Source: a virus
Virus record (IMG/VR): IMGVR_UViG_3300027801_001506
Span: 1-27,387 of that record
Direction: 5' to 3' (one strand)
Length of the DNA stretch: 27,387 nt
Shown here: piece by piece, positions 6,056 to 19,069 of the stretch
Layout: every line of letters starts with the position of its first letter
Numbering within the stretch: position 1 is the first letter of the stretch
Notes under the pieces: model-generated
Databases searched by the model: none
Told to the model about the DNA's origin: nothing
Seen by the model: the letters and a program-made list of their open reading frames with translations, nothing else
Program-made: the position numbers and the translations under genes

Positions 6056-6463
6056 ATGGAAGCAATTAAAATAATAAAATTGGTTAATGGTGATGATATT
6101 GTTTGTACAATACCAGAAAGATTATTGGATGATAAATCGCCGCTTGTTAAAATTGATAAACCTTTACAAATAAAATACATACCTGCTATGGAAGATATGG
6201 GTCTTAAAGATTATGTTGCCCTTATTAAATGGACTTCATATTCAGATGATTGTATTATTTCTATACCTAAAGATAAGATAATGACTATCACATCTGCTGG
6301 TAAAGCTATGACTAACTCATATATAAATGTATCTACTGGATATGATAAGGCGACCATGACTGAACATAAACAAGAATCATATGATAGAGAAGAACTAGAT
6401 GATGATGTATCTAAGAAGTTGAATGATATATTTGATAACCTTGATGATAGCACTAAACACTAG
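6056..6463 (+). CDS. Small Sm-like phage protein, copy 1
   Basis: A 135-residue protein with an N-terminal beta-rich domain (MEAIKIIKLVNGDDIVCTI, then KIDKPLQIKYIP). The opening x-I-K-I-I-K-L-x-x-G-[DE]-D-I-x-x-x-I matches a small family in marine T4-like phages for which I recall an Sm-like fold in a cyanophage-derived crystal structure; I cannot verify that here. The C-terminal third (REELDDDVSKKLNDIFDNLDD) is acidic and probably extended. A paralog lies at 25328, next to DNA polymerase. Sm folds bind RNA or single-stranded nucleic acid, but no function is established here. It is translated from a clear AAAGGAG site. Confidence 0.65.
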   Translation: MEAIKIIKLVNGDDIVCTIPERLLDDKSPLVKIDKPLQIKYIPAMEDMGLKDYVALIKWTSYSDDCIISIPKDKIMTITSAGKAMTNSYINVSTGYDKATMTEHKQESYDREELDDDVSKKLNDIFDNLDDSTKH

Positions 6464-6501
6464 CTACTCTGAACCTCGGTGGGAGAACACAGCTAAAATA
6501 A

Positions 6502-6518
6502 CATAAATATAACATAAT
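6502..6518 (+). promoter_or_regulatory. Weak promoter-like elements before the desaturase array
   Basis: The 72-base gap before the desaturases is the only break for several kilobases. It contains CATAAATA at 6502-6509 (one mismatch to the T4 late element) and CATAAT at 6513-6518 (one mismatch to a sigma70 -10) with no recognisable -35. Either could start desaturase mRNA, but the evidence is weak and read-through from uvsW is equally possible. Confidence 0.25.
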
Positions 6519-6535
6519 GTCAAGCATGGTTGAAA

Positions 6536-7276
6536 ATGAATTTATATCTTAAAATGAAGATGGTAATGTTGAGTGCATATTTAATATCAGCACTTGGTTT
6601 ATACTATTACTTTTCTTGGGTAAATATTCAAATTGCAGTATTTATGTGGGTACTATTTACAATAGGTGTATCTGGTGGATATCATAAACTATTATCACAT
6701 AAACAATTTAAAACAGGCAACACTTTTAAATATTTCTTAATCTTTCTAGGTACAATCTCTGGTCTAGGAAGTAGTATTGCTTGGTCAGCACAACACAGAT
6801 TACATCATAAGTATTCAGATGTTAAGGGTGATGACCCATACTACCCACAAGACAAACCAATATTAACAGGATTTCACGGATTCTGGCCAACCAAATCATT
6901 TAATTTAATGATAGGAAAAGACTTAATGAAAGACCCTATACAGATGTTTATACACAATCATTATTTTAAAATATTACTTACTTATATAATAATACTATTT
7001 GTAATCAATCCAGTACTAGTAGTTTATATGTGGGCATTACCATGCACAATGTATCTATTATGTGTACACTTTGGGGTTGGTGTATTGGGTCATGGTCAAC
7101 CATTTAAATTGGGTTGGAGAGACCATAATTTAGATGATAATAGTATAAATAGTCATATAATGAATATATTTACCTTAGGGGAAAGTTATCAAAATACACA
7201 TCATTATAACCCCTCTAAATTAATTTGTGGTAGATATGATATGTTAGGTTACTTAATGAGAGTTATATCAAAATGA
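6536..7276 (+). CDS. Membrane fatty-acid-desaturase family protein 1 of 5 (variant third His box)
   Basis: A 246-residue polytopic membrane protein of the acyl-lipid/acyl-CoA desaturase family, which uses a di-iron centre and external electrons to introduce double bonds in acyl chains. Hydrophobic segments lie near residues 10-45, 64-80 and 146-185. His box 1 is H50-x4-H55 (YHKLLSH) and box 2 is H87-x2-H90-H91 (HRLHH). In the third box the first histidine is replaced by glutamine: Q219-N-T-H222-H223 (SYQNTHH, codon CAA at 7190). An extra H186 (LGHGQ) matches the accessory histidine of delta-9 enzymes. ATG 6536 is preferred over TTG 6530; neither has a Shine-Dalgarno. It is shorter than typical bacterial DesC. 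The missing ligand may mean altered chemistry or a regulatory role. Confidence 0.85.
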   Translation: MNLYLKMKMVMLSAYLISALGLYYYFSWVNIQIAVFMWVLFTIGVSGGYHKLLSHKQFKTGNTFKYFLIFLGTISGLGSSIAWSAQHRLHHKYSDVKGDDPYYPQDKPILTGFHGFWPTKSFNLMIGKDLMKDPIQMFIHNHYFKILLTYIIILFVINPVLVVYMWALPCTMYLLCVHFGVGVLGHGQPFKLGWRDHNLDDNSINSHIMNIFTLGESYQNTHHYNPSKLICGRYDMLGYLMRVISK

Positions 7277-8025
7277 CAAGATATCAAATAGAAAATGGTA
7301 AACTTTGTTTATATCAAGGTCTATCAATAGTATGTGCAATATATGGTTTATTCGTATTGCCTCTATATCTATGGGTAATATTTTGCTTCGTAGGTTGGTT
7401 CTTAGGTGGTGTTATAGGACACGGTGTAGGTTTACATAGATATTGGGCTCATAGAAGTTTTGTAGTAAACAGATTTTGGCATTATGTATTGTGTTTTCAA
7501 TCTACAATGTGTGGCATGGGTTCACCAGCTACATATGCAAGTGTACATTTAAGACATCACAAACATTCAGATACAGATAAAGACCCTCATAGTCCTAAGT
7601 ACAAGGGTAAACTATCTGTCTTTTTTGGTTACTTTTTTAACATATATGCCGTTGATTTATCATATGCAAAAAGATTTTTAGTTAAATATCCAGAACAGAG
7701 ATTCGTACATCAACATTATAATAAATTTCATGTAGCATATATTACATTATTATTTCTAATTAATCCTATATTATTATATCCATTATATTTCTTTCCAATA
7801 ATTTGGGCAGTTTTGTTTGGGGCAATAGTTAATGTATACAATCATATACCTAGTGAGGGGGTATCAAACAAAATATGGATTGAATACTTATTAGCTGGTG
7901 AAGGTTGGCACAAAGAACATCATAGAAGGGCAACAGCAACTTACCCATATCCAGACTTTTCAGGCACTATAATAAAATTAATAGGAGAACCTAAGGTCAA
8001 ATATCATGATGAAACAACAGTCTAA
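7273..8025 (+). CDS. Membrane fatty-acid-desaturase family protein 2 of 5
   Basis: A 250-residue membrane desaturase with all three histidine boxes intact: H55-RYWA-H60, H92-LR-H95-H96 (VHLRHHKHSD) and H213-KE-H216-H217 (GWHKEHH). The accessory H191 lies in VNVYNH. The box-1 context (GHGVGLHRYWAHRSF) and box-2 context (SDTDKDPHSP) closely resemble delta-9 acyl desaturases such as DesC. Two hydrophobic pairs flank the boxes (about 13-48 and 155-187). It overlaps gene 1 by ATGA. It groups with the fifth gene by shared DPHSPK and VFFGYFF stretches. Substrate and regiospecificity cannot be read from sequence. The 3' end overlaps the next gene by 20 bases. Confidence 0.9.
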   Translation: MTRYQIENGKLCLYQGLSIVCAIYGLFVLPLYLWVIFCFVGWFLGGVIGHGVGLHRYWAHRSFVVNRFWHYVLCFQSTMCGMGSPATYASVHLRHHKHSDTDKDPHSPKYKGKLSVFFGYFFNIYAVDLSYAKRFLVKYPEQRFVHQHYNKFHVAYITLLFLINPILLYPLYFFPIIWAVLFGAIVNVYNHIPSEGVSNKIWIEYLLAGEGWHKEHHRRATATYPYPDFSGTIIKLIGEPKVKYHDETTV

Positions 8026-8755
8026 ATTATTACTAGTAAATTTCATAGTGCATGTTGCCACAATTTTTGGCATATATTATTACTGGTCAGAATTTATCTG
8101 GTTAGATTTTTTAATTATTAATCTAGCAATAATATTTTTTGCGATAACAGTTGCAGAGTGTTTTGTACATAGATATTGTACTCACATGGCATATAAATTA
8201 AACAAGGGCATGGAAACATTTTTGATATACTGTAGTACATTTACATTACACCCACCCATATTAGTTTGGGCACCCAATCACATAACACATCACAAATATC
8301 CAGACATAGACGGCGATTCACATCCTGCTAGTGATGGTTGGAAAACATGGTTTTGGTATGATACATATAAAAATAATATGATAAGCAGTCATACAGTAAA
8401 AAGATTATTAAAAAATAAACATTATAGAATACAATATGAAAACTTTTTTATAATATATGTTATTAGTATTATGACTGCTATGGTAATTAGTCCATTCTAT
8501 ACATTGTGTATATTACTAATACCTGCTGTATTTACATTTCATATCGCTGGTATTATAAATGTTTTATGTCATACTTTAAAGTGGGGATATAGAAATTTTG
8601 ATACAAAAGATACTTCAGTAAATATAAATATATTTCCATTTAGTTGTTCAACATTACATAACAATCATCACAAGAATCCCAGCTCTATAACTACTAGAGT
8701 ACATTGGTATGAAATAGATATAGGCGAATATATAATTAAGATGATAAGAATATGA
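8006..8755 (+). CDS. Membrane fatty-acid-desaturase family protein 3 of 5
   Basis: A 249-residue membrane protein with intact boxes H55-RYCT-H60, H92-IT-H95-H96 (NHITHH) and H218-NN-H221-H222 (LHNNHHKNPSS), plus H189 in NVLCH. Hydrophobic segments lie near 8-52, 70-88 and 145-185. The motif DIDGDSHPASDGW after box 2 is shared only with the next gene, its close paralog. The start may be ATG 8006 or the adjacent ATG 8009; both lie inside the end of gene 2, so translation is probably coupled. Sterol/alkane hydroxylase-like members of the superfamily cannot be excluded, but box spacing fits desaturases. Confidence 0.88.
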   Translation: MMKQQSKLLLVNFIVHVATIFGIYYYWSEFIWLDFLIINLAIIFFAITVAECFVHRYCTHMAYKLNKGMETFLIYCSTFTLHPPILVWAPNHITHHKYPDIDGDSHPASDGWKTWFWYDTYKNNMISSHTVKRLLKNKHYRIQYENFFIIYVISIMTAMVISPFYTLCILLIPAVFTFHIAGIINVLCHTLKWGYRNFDTKDTSVNINIFPFSCSTLHNNHHKNPSSITTRVHWYEIDIGEYIIKMIRI

Positions 8756-9483
8756 AAATATTTTCACTACAATATGCATGTCAAATACTAACCTTCTTTG
8801 GTATATATTACTATTGGAATGAATTTACTTGGGCATGGGGTTTAGTTATTGCATTGGGTATAACATTTTTTGCCCTTACATTACTTGAATGTTTTATGCA
8901 CAGATATTGTTGCCACAATGCATTTAAATTAAATCACTATGTAGAAACATTTATATTATATACTAGTACACTATGTACATTTGGTCCTGCAACAACACAT
9001 GCAGCCTATCACAAAAAACATCATAGACATTCTGATAAAGAAGGCGATTCACACCCAGCGTCAGATGGTTGGAGAAACTATCTATGGTTAAACATAAATG
9101 ATTATCATACAACATCTAGAGATATATTAAGTGTTAGAAAACTACTTAAAAAGAAACATTTTAATATACAGTCAGAACACTACTTTAAAATATGGTTCGC
9201 ATTGTTTATACCACTTGCAGTGATTAGTCCTATGTTTACATTGTGCTTTGTATTAATACCAATATATTATCAATGGCATATTTCAGGTATAGTAAATACT
9301 GTATGTCATAAATGGGGATATAGAAACTTTAATACTAATGATAATTCAGTAAATATAAACATACCACTTATTGCAAATGGTCTACATAACAATCATCATC
9401 AAAATCCAAGTGCAATAACAACAAGAGTAAAATGGTATGAGATAGATTTGGGCGAATACATTATTAAGATGATAAGAATATGA
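8752..9483 (+). CDS. Membrane fatty-acid-desaturase family protein 4 of 5
   Basis: A 243-residue membrane protein and the closest paralog of gene 3. They share GIYYYW near the N-terminus, the box 1 context (ECF-x-HRYC-x-H), DSHPASDGW, the SVNINI stretch, HNNHH-x-NPS and the C-terminal nine residues EYIIKMIRI. Boxes are H50-RYCC-H55, H87-KK-H90-H91 and H212-NN-H215-H216; the accessory histidine is H186. The final 21 bases of the two genes are identical (8735-8755 and 9463-9483), so duplication is fairly recent or kept uniform by recombination. It starts in an ATGA overlap and ends in another. Confidence 0.88.
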   Translation: MKIFSLQYACQILTFFGIYYYWNEFTWAWGLVIALGITFFALTLLECFMHRYCCHNAFKLNHYVETFILYTSTLCTFGPATTHAAYHKKHHRHSDKEGDSHPASDGWRNYLWLNINDYHTTSRDILSVRKLLKKKHFNIQSEHYFKIWFALFIPLAVISPMFTLCFVLIPIYYQWHISGIVNTVCHKWGYRNFNTNDNSVNINIPLIANGLHNNHHQNPSAITTRVKWYEIDLGEYIIKMIRI

Positions 9484-10187
9484 TTAATAAAATGAGAATA
9501 ATGTGGACATTGTTGTGGGTAGGTTTTATATCGAGTTTCTTTTTTCTATCATTAGAACAATGGTTAGTCTTTTTATTAATAGGTTATATATTAGGTAACA
9601 TAGGGCAACCTATTGCAGTACACAGCTACTTTACACACAAGGCATTTGAAACAAATAAGTTTTGGCATTACTTCTTAGTGTATACATCTATTCTAGCAGG
9701 AACAGGTTCTACAATATTATATAAATCTGCACATATAAAACATCATAGATATGTTGATACAAAAGAAGACCCACATTCACCTAAACACATAGGTTTATTT
9801 AAAGTATTCTTTGGTTATTTTTTTGCAGAAGAACAAGGCAAAAAGAGTATGATATATGCAAAAGATTTACTTAGAGATAAAGAACAAGTTTTTATACATG
9901 AACACTATTTTAAAATACATACAATATATTTCTTTACATTATTAATGATAAGTCCTATTTTAGTTTATGCATTACATATATTTCCTGCCATGTATAGTAT
10001 TATAGGTGGGGGTGTTATAAATGGTTTAGGACATTATCCAGAAGAGGCAAAAAACAATAAATGGATTGCACTTTTATTTTCGGGTGGTTACCATAAGTAT
10101 CATCACGATAACCCATCAGATTGGTACATGCCTTTTTCGTGGTGGACAAATACATTTATTAAATTAATAAAGACCAACCAGCATTGA
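9480..10187 (+). CDS. Membrane fatty-acid-desaturase family protein 5 of 5
   Basis: A 235-residue membrane protein with boxes H48-SYFT-H53, H85-IK-H88-H89 (AHIKHH) and H205-KY-H208-H209 (GGYHKYHH), plus H185 (LGH). Residues 92-115 (VDTKEDPHSPKHIGLFKVFF) resemble gene 2, so the array seems built from at least three subfamilies: gene 1; genes 2 and 5; genes 3 and 4. The start may be ATG 9480 (ATGA overlap) or ATG 9492. Its TGA stop lies inside the -35 hexamer of the gp55 promoter, so the array ends exactly at a new transcription unit. Confidence 0.88.
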   Translation: MINKMRIMWTLLWVGFISSFFFLSLEQWLVFLLIGYILGNIGQPIAVHSYFTHKAFETNKFWHYFLVYTSILAGTGSTILYKSAHIKHHRYVDTKEDPHSPKHIGLFKVFFGYFFAEEQGKKSMIYAKDLLRDKEQVFIHEHYFKIHTIYFFTLLMISPILVYALHIFPAMYSIIGGGVINGLGHYPEEAKNNKWIALLFSGGYHKYHHDNPSDWYMPFSWWTNTFIKLIKTNQH

Positions 10188-10191
10188 CATT
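10173..10191 (+). repeat. 19-bp shared upstream element, gp55 copy
   Basis: ACCAACCAGCATTGACATT is identical to 21386-21404 in front of gp45. It includes the TTGACA -35 box and the 11 bases upstream of it. Here it lacks the downstream arm that forms an inverted repeat at the gp45 copy. Confidence 0.8.
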
Positions 10192-10212
10192 ACTTGTCTA
10201 ATGATATATAAT
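10184..10212 (+). promoter_or_regulatory. Consensus sigma70 promoter for gp55
   Basis: TTGACA at 10184-10189, a 17-base spacer and TATAAT at 10207-10212: a perfect host sigma70 consensus promoter, as expected for a phage early gene. The -10 covers the first two bases of the upstream-most ATG (10211), so transcription would begin near 10219-10220, at the second ATG. Confidence 0.85.
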
Positions 10213-10219
10213 GAGTAAC

Positions 10220-10756
10220 ATGAAATCAGATAAAAAGAAAGAACATTATGTGAACAATAAAGAGTTTCTAGCAGCTATGACTGAATATAGAAAACTCCGT
10301 ACGGACGCTGAAGAATCAGGTGAAGATAAACCACATGTTTCAAACTACATAGGTGAATGCTTTCTAAAGATTGCAAATCATCTATCATATAGACCAAACT
10401 TTATTAACTATACATTTAGAGATGATATGATTTCTGATGGTATAGAAAACTGTCTACAATATCTTGATAATTTCAATCCAGAAAAATCAAACAATCCATT
10501 CGCATACTTTACACAAATAATATACTATGCCTTTATACGAAGAATACAGAAAGAAAAAAAACAAACTACAATTAAGAATAGATTAATCATGGAAGGAAAC
10601 TATGATGATATGACTTTGAATGATGGTGAAGATAGAGAATTTAGAAATCAATTTTCTGAATTCCTACAAAGGAATGCCGACCCTAAAGATGTTCCTGTTG
10701 TTAAAAAGAAAACAACAAGAAAAAGAAAAGGCAAACTAGATAAATTTATAGAATAA
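10220..10756 (+). CDS. 55: gp55 late-transcription sigma factor
   Basis: A 178-residue homolog of T4 gp55 (185 residues), the small sigma factor that directs host RNA polymerase to TATAAATA late promoters with gp33 and the gp45 clamp. Recognisable features are YVNNKEFLAAM near the N-terminus, DDMISDGIENCLQYLDNFNP and NPFAYFTQIIYYAFIRRIQ followed by a KEKK run, which correspond to sigma region 2. The C-terminus is very basic (KKKTTRKRKGK). ATG 10211 would add three residues but overlaps the -10 box. From ATG 10220 the YVNNKE motif sits at the same distance from the start as I recall for T4. The three TATAAATA sites in this window are its expected targets. Confidence 0.9.
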   Translation: MKSDKKKEHYVNNKEFLAAMTEYRKLRTDAEESGEDKPHVSNYIGECFLKIANHLSYRPNFINYTFRDDMISDGIENCLQYLDNFNPEKSNNPFAYFTQIIYYAFIRRIQKEKKQTTIKNRLIMEGNYDDMTLNDGEDREFRNQFSEFLQRNADPKDVPVVKKKTTRKRKGKLDKFIE

Positions 10757-16389: not shown

Positions 16390-17471
16390 TGGCAAATAAT
16401 GAATGTATAATGGATGTTCTTGATAGATTTAAAAAGAAAGGTTTTCCATATTACTCTACTGATACAAAATGGCGAAATGATAAGTTTAATGTATTGATGA
16501 ATACAAAACTTGAAACCATCATAGACAGAAGACAAAATATTATAGGTCAAAATCCTAATGGTCTATCACTTGCATGGTCTTATATGGAACATGCTTGGGC
16601 AATTAAATGTGGCAAGATGAGAACACCAATGGAAGTTTGGGAAGATGAAGAACATCTAAAGAAAGGTATTAATAAAATACTATCAGGCACATTCTTTACA
16701 AAAAGAGAACATTACGAAATATCAGATTCAGACATGAGGTCAATGTTGAGAAGATATTCCGGCACACAAATGGTATCTAACTTTAGACCTACAGCTGCAG
16801 CCGCAATGTATAATATATTTGTAGATAGAGATTCTATTCTTGAAGGCACAACAGCAGGAACAGTTTGGGATCCTAGTATGGGTTATGGTGGTAGATTACT
16901 CGGTGCTATTTTAGCAGGTGTCAATTATATTGGTACAGACCCATGCATACCTACATATCAAGGATTAGAAAAGATTAGAGATGAATATGGTCATCAAGAT
17001 AAAAAATATGACTTACTTAGACAAGGTAGTGAAACATTTATACCAGATGAAGAAAGTTTAGACTTTGTATTTACAAGTCCACCTTACTTTGGTTGGGAAG
17101 CATATGGTGATGAACCAGAACAATCAAGTATTAAGTTTGATACATCTGAAGTATGGAAAGAAAAGTTTTTAAAACAAACAATTAAAAATGCACATAGAGG
17201 ATTAAAGAAAGGTAAGTTTCTTGCATTGAATGTTGCAAACACAAAACAATATAAAACATTTGAAGAAGACACAGTTCAACTTGCAATTGAATCCGGTTTT
17301 AAACATACAGATACATGGTGGTTATCTTTATCAACACAACAAGGTAAAGTAGAACAAGGTTCTCTAGAGGGTGTAACTGAAGTTAAACAGAAACAGCGAT
17401 ATATGGGCGAGTATGTTAGACCAGATGTTCCTGGTAGAAAATTTGAACCTACATTTATATTTCAAAAATGA
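16389..17471 (+). CDS. DNA methyltransferase (SPPY-type, N4-cytosine or N6-adenine)
   Basis: A 360-residue protein starting at ATG 16389 (TGATG overlap with the glycosyltransferase). VWDPSMGYGGRLLG at 159-172 is the SAM-binding motif I region, DPCIP supplies the acidic residue after the next strand, and FTSPPYFGWEAYG with S230-PPY233 is catalytic motif IV. Motif I precedes motif IV. SPPY is commonest in N4-cytosine enzymes but does not exclude adenine. A 150-residue N-terminal region with RRYSGTQMVSNFRP may be a target-recognition part. No restriction endonuclease is next to it, so it is an orphan, possibly for self-protection or as part of a DNA-modification route. Confidence 0.87.
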   Translation: MANNECIMDVLDRFKKKGFPYYSTDTKWRNDKFNVLMNTKLETIIDRRQNIIGQNPNGLSLAWSYMEHAWAIKCGKMRTPMEVWEDEEHLKKGINKILSGTFFTKREHYEISDSDMRSMLRRYSGTQMVSNFRPTAAAAMYNIFVDRDSILEGTTAGTVWDPSMGYGGRLLGAILAGVNYIGTDPCIPTYQGLEKIRDEYGHQDKKYDLLRQGSETFIPDEESLDFVFTSPPYFGWEAYGDEPEQSSIKFDTSEVWKEKFLKQTIKNAHRGLKKGKFLALNVANTKQYKTFEEDTVQLAIESGFKHTDTWWLSLSTQQGKVEQGSLEGVTEVKQKQRYMGEYVRPDVPGRKFEPTFIFQK

Positions 17472-18421
17472 AAATCTTAGGTATCAATACTTCTCATCAA
17501 CCTTCAATATGTCAATTAACAGATGGTAAAATTGATTTTCATTTAGATGAAACTAGAGTACGAAGAAATAAGTATTTTATGCCTAGAGAAGATGACAGTT
17601 TCTTTCATTCTATTGATAAACTAAAAGATAAAAACTTTGATGGTGTTGTAGTTGCTTCATATGATAGAAGATTTGAATCAGTTCGTAATGGAACAAGTCC
17701 AGAAGCAGATAAAATTATTTTAAAATCACTACAAGAACAATTGCCTAATTGTCCATTTTATTCTCAACCAGAACATCATCTATATCATGCATTATCATCT
17801 CATTCATATTCTAAAAACAAAGAATCATTAGTTATAGTTATGGACGGAGGTGGTGCTCAATTATTTCCTACATATCAAGAAATGGAAAGTATATACTTAA
17901 TGAATGAATCTGTTCTTAAATTATATTCTAGACATTCTAATATACGAACACAAGAAATTTTAGATGATTCACATGTTCAAGACATGTTTTTTAAAATAGA
18001 TGAAACTGATTATGAATTTAATTCAGAAACTTCATCAGGCGGATTATTTGCTGATATGGCAGCCTCTTTTGATATGCCAGTTTTTAGTGAAGGTAAAGTT
18101 ATGGGAATGTCGGCATATGGTCATCACAATCAAGGGTATGTAGAAGAAGAAGAATTATTATCACCAGCTGATAAATCATTAAGATTACAAAATAAAACCT
18201 TTAATGATACAATAGAATTAATAAAACATGCAATAACATATTCAGACTGTAAAAATATTGTATTGTCAGGTGGTTATGCTTTAAATTGTGTAAATAATTA
18301 TAGATACTTAGATGAGTTTCCTAAACACAATTTTTTTGTAGACCCAAATCCAGGCGATAGTGGTACTTCAACAGGGGCTGCTATATGGTTACATTTTTAT
18401 TTAAAGGCAGGAGGCTTTTAA
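17468..18421 (+). CDS. Carbamoyltransferase, N-terminal (Kae1-like) part of a split gene
   Basis: A 317-residue protein equal to the N-terminal ASKHA/Kae1-like domain of NodU/CmcH/TobZ-type carbamoyltransferases. Supporting segments are MKILGINTSHQPSICQL, PEHHLYHALSSHSYS (metal-binding HxxxH area), VIVMDGGG, SGGLFADMAASFD, GKVMGMSAYG and NIVLSGGYALNCVNN, then NPGDSGTSTGAAIWL. This domain transfers carbamoyl from carbamoyl-adenylate to the acceptor hydroxyl. The family is normally one chain of about 550 residues; here it stops at 18421 and the C-terminal domain is a separate gene. It begins in an ATGA overlap with the methyltransferase. Its last bases carry the AGGAGG site of the next small gene. 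Confidence 0.87.
   Translation: MKILGINTSHQPSICQLTDGKIDFHLDETRVRRNKYFMPREDDSFFHSIDKLKDKNFDGVVVASYDRRFESVRNGTSPEADKIILKSLQEQLPNCPFYSQPEHHLYHALSSHSYSKNKESLVIVMDGGGAQLFPTYQEMESIYLMNESVLKLYSRHSNIRTQEILDDSHVQDMFFKIDETDYEFNSETSSGGLFADMAASFDMPVFSEGKVMGMSAYGHHNQGYVEEEELLSPADKSLRLQNKTFNDTIELIKHAITYSDCKNIVLSGGYALNCVNNYRYLDEFPKHNFFVDPNPGDSGTSTGAAIWLHFYLKAGGF
18409..18414 (+). promoter_or_regulatory. Perfect Shine-Dalgarno AGGAGG
   Basis: AGGAGG lies six bases before ATG 18421, inside the last codons of the carbamoyltransferase N-part. It is the strongest Shine-Dalgarno I found in the window and argues that the small ORF is a translated gene and not debris from a broken carbamoyltransferase. Confidence 0.75.
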
Positions 18422-18573
18422 TGGCAATTAAAAAAGAAGACTACGAGACAGTAAAATCTGCAATACATACGAGCATAGTTCCTATGTGTGTAAAAAAGTT
18501 ATGGTTAAAGGATAAGAAATTTAATAAATGGTTTAACAATGATACTACAGAACAAAGAAGAAGTCGTAAGTAA
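18421..18573 (+). CDS. Small basic protein inserted between carbamoyltransferase halves (50 aa)
   Basis: A 50-residue lysine-rich ORF (MAIKKEDYETVKSAIHTS, then KKLWLKDKKFNKWFNN and ending EQRRSRK) with a perfect AGGAGG. I do not recognise it. It overlaps the carbamoyltransferase N-part by one base and the C-part by 35 bases, in a different frame from both. It could be a subunit bridging the two halves or a small independent gene inserted at the domain border. Less likely, it is the old linker translated after two compensating frame changes. It does not look like the linker of known carbamoyltransferases. Confidence 0.6.
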   Translation: MAIKKEDYETVKSAIHTSIVPMCVKKLWLKDKKFNKWFNNDTTEQRRSRK

Positions 18574-19069
18574 ATTACTTGACCAAAAGACAGTTGCTAT
18601 TTTTAATGGCAGAAGTGAATTGGGACCTAGAGCATTAGGTTGTCGTTCTATTTTATTTGACCCTAGAAATGAAAACGCCAAAGAAATTATAAATAAAGTT
18701 AAAAATAGAGAATGGTATCAACCATTTGCTTGTACTATAATGTTAGAACATGTACATGATTATTTTGATATGAAACAATTGAAAGAATCACCATGGATGT
18801 CTTTTGCTTTAAACTGTAAACAAAAAGCAATAAATGAAGTTCCAGGAATAGTTCATGTAGATAATACTTGTAGAGTACAAACATTAACAAAAGAACAAGA
18901 TATATTTTACTATGAGTTGTTAGAAGAATGGTATAGACAAACTAAATGTCCTATTTTACTTAACACCTCATTTAATTTAAAAGGTGAGGCAATTGTAGAA
19001 ACTTTAGATGACGCTATTGATACAGTAAATAGGTCAGACATAGATATTATATATGTAAGTGAGAAATAA
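18539..19069 (+). CDS. Carbamoyltransferase, C-terminal (YrdC-like) part of a split gene
   Basis: A 176-residue protein equal to the C-terminal domain of NodU/CmcH-type carbamoyltransferases. FNGRSELGPRALGCRSILFD at residues 23-42 is the diagnostic motif. REWYQPFACTIM, VHVDNTCRVQTL and CPILLNTSFNLKGEAIVETL complete the family pattern. This domain forms carbamoyl-adenylate from carbamoyl phosphate and ATP. It has no Shine-Dalgarno and starts inside the small ORF, so translation is probably coupled to it. It is in the same frame as the N-terminal part, but four stops (18452, 18476, 18491, 18506) separate them. The two parts presumably assemble into one enzyme. Confidence 0.87.
   Translation: MILQNKEEVVSKLLDQKTVAIFNGRSELGPRALGCRSILFDPRNENAKEIINKVKNREWYQPFACTIMLEHVHDYFDMKQLKESPWMSFALNCKQKAINEVPGIVHVDNTCRVQTLTKEQDIFYYELLEEWYRQTKCPILLNTSFNLKGEAIVETLDDAIDTVNRSDIDIIYVSEK

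Follow-up and report, generated by a model that had tools for sequence, protein, structure and literature searches.

An array of five desaturase-family genes between uvsW and gp55 in a T4-like phage close to the pelagimyophages

Desaturases encoded by phages are a known class of auxiliary genes, and both single genes and phages with five copies are on record. Previously, Zhong et al. 2020 described 12 desaturase genes from four viral populations; two cryopeg viruses, with five genes each, account for ten of these (PMC7300359). These viruses were later extended to phages of 222-230 kb with predicted Pseudomonas hosts, in which desaturase transcription was low (PMC10405475). Here we analyse 27,387 nucleotides of viral DNA (IMG/VR record IMGVR_UViG_3300027801_001506, positions 1 to 27,387; the whole stretch is called the window) that carry an array of five consecutive desaturase-family genes at 6536-10187, between the phage genes uvsW and gp55. 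A previous reading of the sequence alone had proposed the array as the best candidate for an undescribed system in the window, which in the strong sense is not supported in view of the two cryopeg phages published in 2020. What we did not find described is the uvsW-gp55 slot, its modular, exchangeable gene sets and a core gene pair (X-Y) that T4-like and T7-like pelagiphages have in common; the search covered the open-access literature and such silence is weak evidence. We favour, with some reserve, the view that the array is a multi-enzyme unit for acyl-chain remodelling, made up of several non-equivalent desaturases that use host electron donors.

The two Arctic cryopeg Pseudomonas phages, compared by their description, resemble the window in having five fatty acid desaturase (FAD) genes per virus, three-histidine boxes, SCD1-like structure according to Phyre2 and purifying selection, and differ from it in their size and predicted host. 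Cyanophage lipid desaturases (vFAD) are likewise auxiliary genes of marine phages, known here by description only; from the work of Roitman et al. in ISME J in 2018 they are said to form two families that yield delta-9 desaturated C16 chains, and reportedly they are single genes without an array or core pair. A lipid gene of this kind is shared by freshwater pelagimyophages, for which stearoyl-CoA desaturase and fabF are named in one sentence of a paper that describes no array (PMC7029224; compared by description), and a desaturase is present on a scaffold of a probable pelagiphage (PMC11480375). The FA_desaturase protein of Pelagibacter phage Mosig (EXVC030M, MT647606) comes from the same phage group as the window, but it is encoded by a single gene in another region and is 26-30% identical to the array members. 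In Mosig uvsW is followed by a 'methylamine utilization' gene, a very small open reading frame (ORF) and gp55, and the slot is without a desaturase.

The array is composed of five intact consecutive ORFs, each overlapping the next, by 4, 20, 4 and 4 bases from D1 to D5:

D1, 6536..7276, + strand: membrane desaturase, 246 aa from ATG 6536 or 248 aa from TTG 6530; PF00487 54.8 bits
D2, 7273..8025, + strand: membrane desaturase, 250 aa; PF00487 50.5 bits; D5 is its sister clade
D3, 8006..8755, + strand: membrane desaturase, 249 aa; PF00487 47.9 bits; D3/D4 clade
D4, 8752..9483, + strand: membrane desaturase, 243 aa; PF00487 48.7 bits; 53% identity to D3
D5, 9480..10187, + strand: membrane desaturase, 235 aa; PF00487 38.2 bits

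The overlapping frames suggest one operon, i.e. a co-translated cassette. A second IMG/VR contig (3300009420_001223) has the same five-gene array at about 100% identity, and genes 1, 2, 3 and 5 have orthologues in further contigs, which rules out an assembly artefact. Pseudogene decay is ruled out by the intact frames and by ratios of nonsynonymous to synonymous substitution (dN/dS) below 0.5. The GC content of the array is 0.28-0.32 as compared to 0.30 for the whole window, so composition does not mark it as foreign.

All five proteins match the Pfam family PF00487 (FA_desaturase) with E values of 1e-9 to 1e-14 and scores of 38.2-54.8 bits, over the curated cut-off of 29.7 bits; the window holds no further PF00487 match. 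Each protein has the boxes HxxxxH, HxxHH and [H/Q]xxHH and one more invariant His. More specifically, H50, H55, H87, H90, H91, H186, H222 and H223 (D1 numbering) are invariant across 58 phage sequences, one Asp is likewise invariant, and His at position 219 is at least 90% conserved. This nine-histidine ligand set is complete in the array save for a His-to-Gln exchange in D1. A profile alignment places the conserved histidines on the boxes of SCD1 (E 1e-34). AlphaFold2 models cover D1 and D4 (predicted local distance difference test, pLDDT, 93.0 and 92.9), and their template modelling (TM) scores to SCD1 are 0.76-0.80 and 0.76-0.79, respectively; SCD1 structures are the sole PDB matches with E <0.001. 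SCD1 (PDB 4ymk, 4zyo, 6wf2) has the fold (TM up to 0.80), the histidine boxes and the extra His in common with the phage proteins, but is 18-20% identical to them and its solved chains are about 50-80 residues longer. The NCBIfam equivalog NF049918 (DesA family fatty acid desaturase) scores 26-86 bits where 400 are required, and its matches stop by model position 232 of 385. A different membrane family is ruled out by hidden Markov model, profile and fold. The sequence-only reading had given the position of the array, the two possible starts of its first gene, the desaturase family and the three-histidine layout; all of these are borne out, the structure prediction it had proposed gave the SCD1 fold for D1 and D4, and the outcome it had named as fatal, assignment of the proteins to another family, did not occur.

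Because of family, fold and ligands it is likely that the array proteins carry out acyl-chain desaturation, as judged from sequences and models. Hydroxylation is another reaction that the membrane di-iron fold can support, as in AlkB, to which there is a weak structural and profile match, and the FA_desaturase gene of Mosig lies in an island with aminotransferase, dioxygenase and cofactor genes. A related chemistry, such as acyl hydroxylation, epoxidation or modification of tail or surface glycolipids, is nevertheless quite improbable in our opinion, since the models fit SCD1 (E 1e-6 to 1e-8) far better than AlkB (E about 1).

The slot of the array is bounded by the small gene that follows uvsW and by the promoter of gp55, and loci were collected both around gp55 and around desaturases. 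Where the gp55 of a contig has 87% or more identity to that of the window, the slot holds 3, 4 or 5 desaturases, except L078-L080 (gp55 93%), which have an empty site of 157 bases with left and right border sequences recognisably alike. With gp55 below 86% the slot is empty in all contigs with a complete interval. When gp55 was the query, three of the six closest contigs (gp55 at least 93%) carried an array. The borders of the slot in the window are as follows:

6056..6463, + strand: left border gene, Sm-like/DUF6561-related, phrog_471, 135 aa, PF16243 E 8e-4
6464..6535, no strand: left intergenic border, CTAGCTACTC...GAACACAGCTAAAATAACA...AATGTCAAGCRTGGTTG; largely retained in the empty-site relatives L078-L080
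10184..10212, + strand: sigma-70-type promoter TTGACA-17-TATAAT, 12/12, between array and gp55; right slot border
10211..10756, + strand: gp55 late sigma factor, right border gene; phrog_234 E 3e-63

The PF16243 match of the 135-aa gene falls below the curated cut-off, and in phage annotation the gene is labelled 'methylamine utilization'. It keeps its position in relatives with or without an array. The array had been placed between uvsW and gp55, which is right as to location, with the addition that this gene also sits between uvsW and the array. A sequence like the gp55 promoter is seen in empty sites as well. The array lies upstream of this promoter and would therefore be read from the uvsW side. 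A T4 late promoter before the array did not stand out: the pattern TATAAATA, with one mismatch allowed, gave 161 matches as compared to 161 expected by chance. The listed start of gp55 overlaps the -10 box, and translation more probably begins at the in-frame ATG of position 10220; with this start the transcript would be almost leaderless (window 10184-10220).

Seven gene sets are known at the slot, built from a core pair, which can be D1-D2 or X-Y, and variable D3, D4 and D5:

D1-D2-D3-D4-D5, slot: the window and its second copy
D1-D2-D3-D5, slot: L016, L017
D1-D2-D5-like, slot: L018, L019, L022
D1-D2-D3/D4-like, slot: L020, L021
X-Y-D3-D5, slot: L030-L036, L038, L039
X-Y-D3, slot: L037
X-Y-D5, slot: L029, L175

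D4 is found in the window phage and its second copy only, while D5 has orthologues of 71-75% identity in L029-L036. Pairwise identity of the array paralogues is 22-41%, except for D3-D4 with 53%. In the tree X and Y form clades separate from D1-D5, D2 is sister to D5 and D3 to D4, and D4 branches outside every D3 allele; recent duplication of one gene is ruled out by these identities and the tree. Upstream sequence is intact for 82 of the 86 Y genes; each of these 82 is directly preceded by a desaturase, which is X in 73 cases. The array genes are under purifying selection. In D1, D2, X and Y, the core genes, dN/dS is 0.08-0.19 (NG86); D3 and D5 evolve faster, with 0.28-0.47. For the window genes the values are 0.14-0.16 for D1, 0.11-0.19 for D2, 0.36-0.38 for D3 and 0.36-0.43 for D5.

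These data bear on the possibility that the five enzymes catalyse one reaction, such as delta-9 desaturation, and that the copies raise the amount of enzyme in a short infection. The members do share one family and ligand set, the two modelled ones have one fold, and the neighbours D3 and D4 are 53% identical. Such a dosage effect is unlikely all the same, because identity in the other pairs is 22-41%, the position of D4 outside the whole set of D3 alleles shows that it is no fresh duplicate, the core pair is swapped for a different pair and not for extra copies, Y always has a partner, and D1 differs from D2-D5 in having a Q-type instead of an H-type third box. Non-equivalent activities are preferred over dosage because of paralogue divergence, the obligate pair, mixed H- and Q-boxes and module exchange. 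The sequence-only reading had left the choice between multi-step or multi-substrate remodelling of acyl chains and dose amplification; the former is the best reading, and the latter does not fit paralogues that are 22-53% identical, fall into separate, old clades and are exchanged as modules. Seven gene sets and an empty allele at one slot in one clade, together with the faster evolution of the accessory genes D3 and D5, are also what would be expected of a hot spot that gains and loses paralogues to match the acyl composition of each SAR11 ecotype, or temperature, so that one phage needs part of the set. We hold such a lipid-matching locus to be improbable too, as the core pair is constrained and always paired, which suggests a fixed function.

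Dozens of further marine contigs carry the X-Y pair, commonly with tail-fibre genes on one side and, on the other, a small gene that is followed by terminase. This terminase is 84% identical to that of Pelagibacter phage HTVC109P, and the contigs are therefore assigned to T7-like pelagiphages. In some of them (L179-L182, L216-L220) a third gene of the D3/D4 clade follows, in the order X-Y-Z. Our tentative suggestion is that two unrelated SAR11 phage families share a transferable multi-enzyme acyl-remodelling module, in which an obligate desaturase pair and interchangeable accessories would act sequentially or as a complex and yield polyunsaturated or non-host lipids. If this is true, the module is a virus-encoded lipid pathway and not a lone auxiliary gene. 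Among named isolates, homologues of D1, D2, X or Y were found only in Mosig and two Acinetobacter phage records, at about 30% identity or less, and D4 as query gave none.

The longest run seen is one of seven tandem desaturases in a 76.9 kb viral contig (L372:1953-7484); it lies upstream of genes for T4-type head protease and scaffold proteins, at a distance of a few kilobases. Five of the seven genes pass Pfam and two were found solely by a purpose-built profile, yet have all three boxes. Two other contigs, L364 and L395, have five desaturases in tandem each. The five-gene run had been called unusual; runs of three to seven recur in other aquatic phages of IMG/VR, so the array is neither unique nor the maximum. 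In the large aquatic viral contigs L379, L384, L386 and L236 desaturases are interspersed with biosynthetic-looking genes, in L236 with radical SAM genes. A contig of the window's clade that bears an X-Y-D3-D5 array (G006, IMGVR 3300048023_000188) also has a 427-aa gene (L244:3430-4710, - strand) whose product, a phage-borne AlkB-like protein, matches structures of the alkane 1-monooxygenase AlkB (E 6e-29) and contains the motif NYLEHYGL.

How could such a remodelling unit work? The five SCD1-fold, di-iron-type enzymes of about 240 aa would differ in substrate positions or chain preferences and act during infection on host membrane lipids (or on acyl-coenzyme A or acyl carrier protein substrates), with O2 as oxidant and host ferredoxin, or another donor of the host, as the source of electrons. 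The constrained core pair, D1 and D2 here and X and Y in relatives, may give the basic activity, and the faster-evolving accessory proteins D3, D4 and D5 may tune or widen it. The phage could benefit through membrane fluidity that favours its replication, the production of virions or lysis. We infer the catalytic activity of the enzymes, their substrates and their non-redundancy, and likewise the host, the electron donor and the gain for the phage. Three joint membrane desaturases, each essential, are a hallmark of bacterial polyyne clusters (PMC8406139), and by analogy successive desaturases of the array could produce acetylenic or highly unsaturated fatty acids. The co-encoding of several membrane desaturases is indeed common to both. 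The bacterial clusters, however, also carry fatty acyl-AMP ligase, acyl carrier protein and rubredoxin (PF00501, PF00550, PF00301), none of which was found in 13 incomplete records that bear an array or a pair, and we consider a polyyne- or alkyne-like pathway very improbable.

It is important to note that several points weigh against acyl-chain remodelling by non-equivalent desaturases. No 2Fe-2S ferredoxin or rubredoxin was found in the records searched, the contigs being all incomplete; if none is encoded by the phage, electrons must be host-derived, and the need for host donors that had been proposed before agrees with this result. In D1 position 219 is Gln and the third box reads QxxHH, as opposed to the H-type of D2-D5. 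This Q is shared by the 85% and 76% identical orthologues (L016, L018), the 48% identical orthologue has H, and a Q-type box also occurs in three of the seven desaturases in the array of another phage; front-end desaturases typically have the Q-form. X, a divergent member of the family, scores under the PF00487 search threshold in some records. Since most of the clade was reached by desaturase queries, the frequency of arrays in it is biased. The search for bacterial relatives used a single motif set; the nearest matches that it gave have about 31% identity and are each the one copy in their locus, which speaks weakly against recent capture of a host gene. Assignment of the host to SAR11 rests on related phages, and the enzyme activity of the array is predicted from sequence and models.

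The phage is T4-like, since UvsY, tail tube, UvsW and gp55 are among the core genes of the window, and the array is flanked by the phage core genes uvsY, uvsW, gp55, gp47 and gp46. By its best DNA matches, Pelagibacter phage Mosig and next HTVC008M, it is closest to pelagimyophages, and its host is probably SAR11 (Pelagibacterales). SAR11 are among the commonest bacteria of the sea, and if their phages carry sets of desaturases, infection could shift the unsaturation of a large marine lipid pool. Such phages could show which membrane state infection needs, and alleles with zero, three, four and five genes in closely related backgrounds make the question of why phages carry desaturases testable.

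Elsewhere in the window, two tandem and very similar 183-aa JmjC/cupin-like genes adjoin a 2-oxoglutarate-Fe(II) oxygenase gene (691-1794). A NodU-like carbamoyltransferase gene at 17468-19069 is broken across frames, being frameshifted, decayed or an assembly error.

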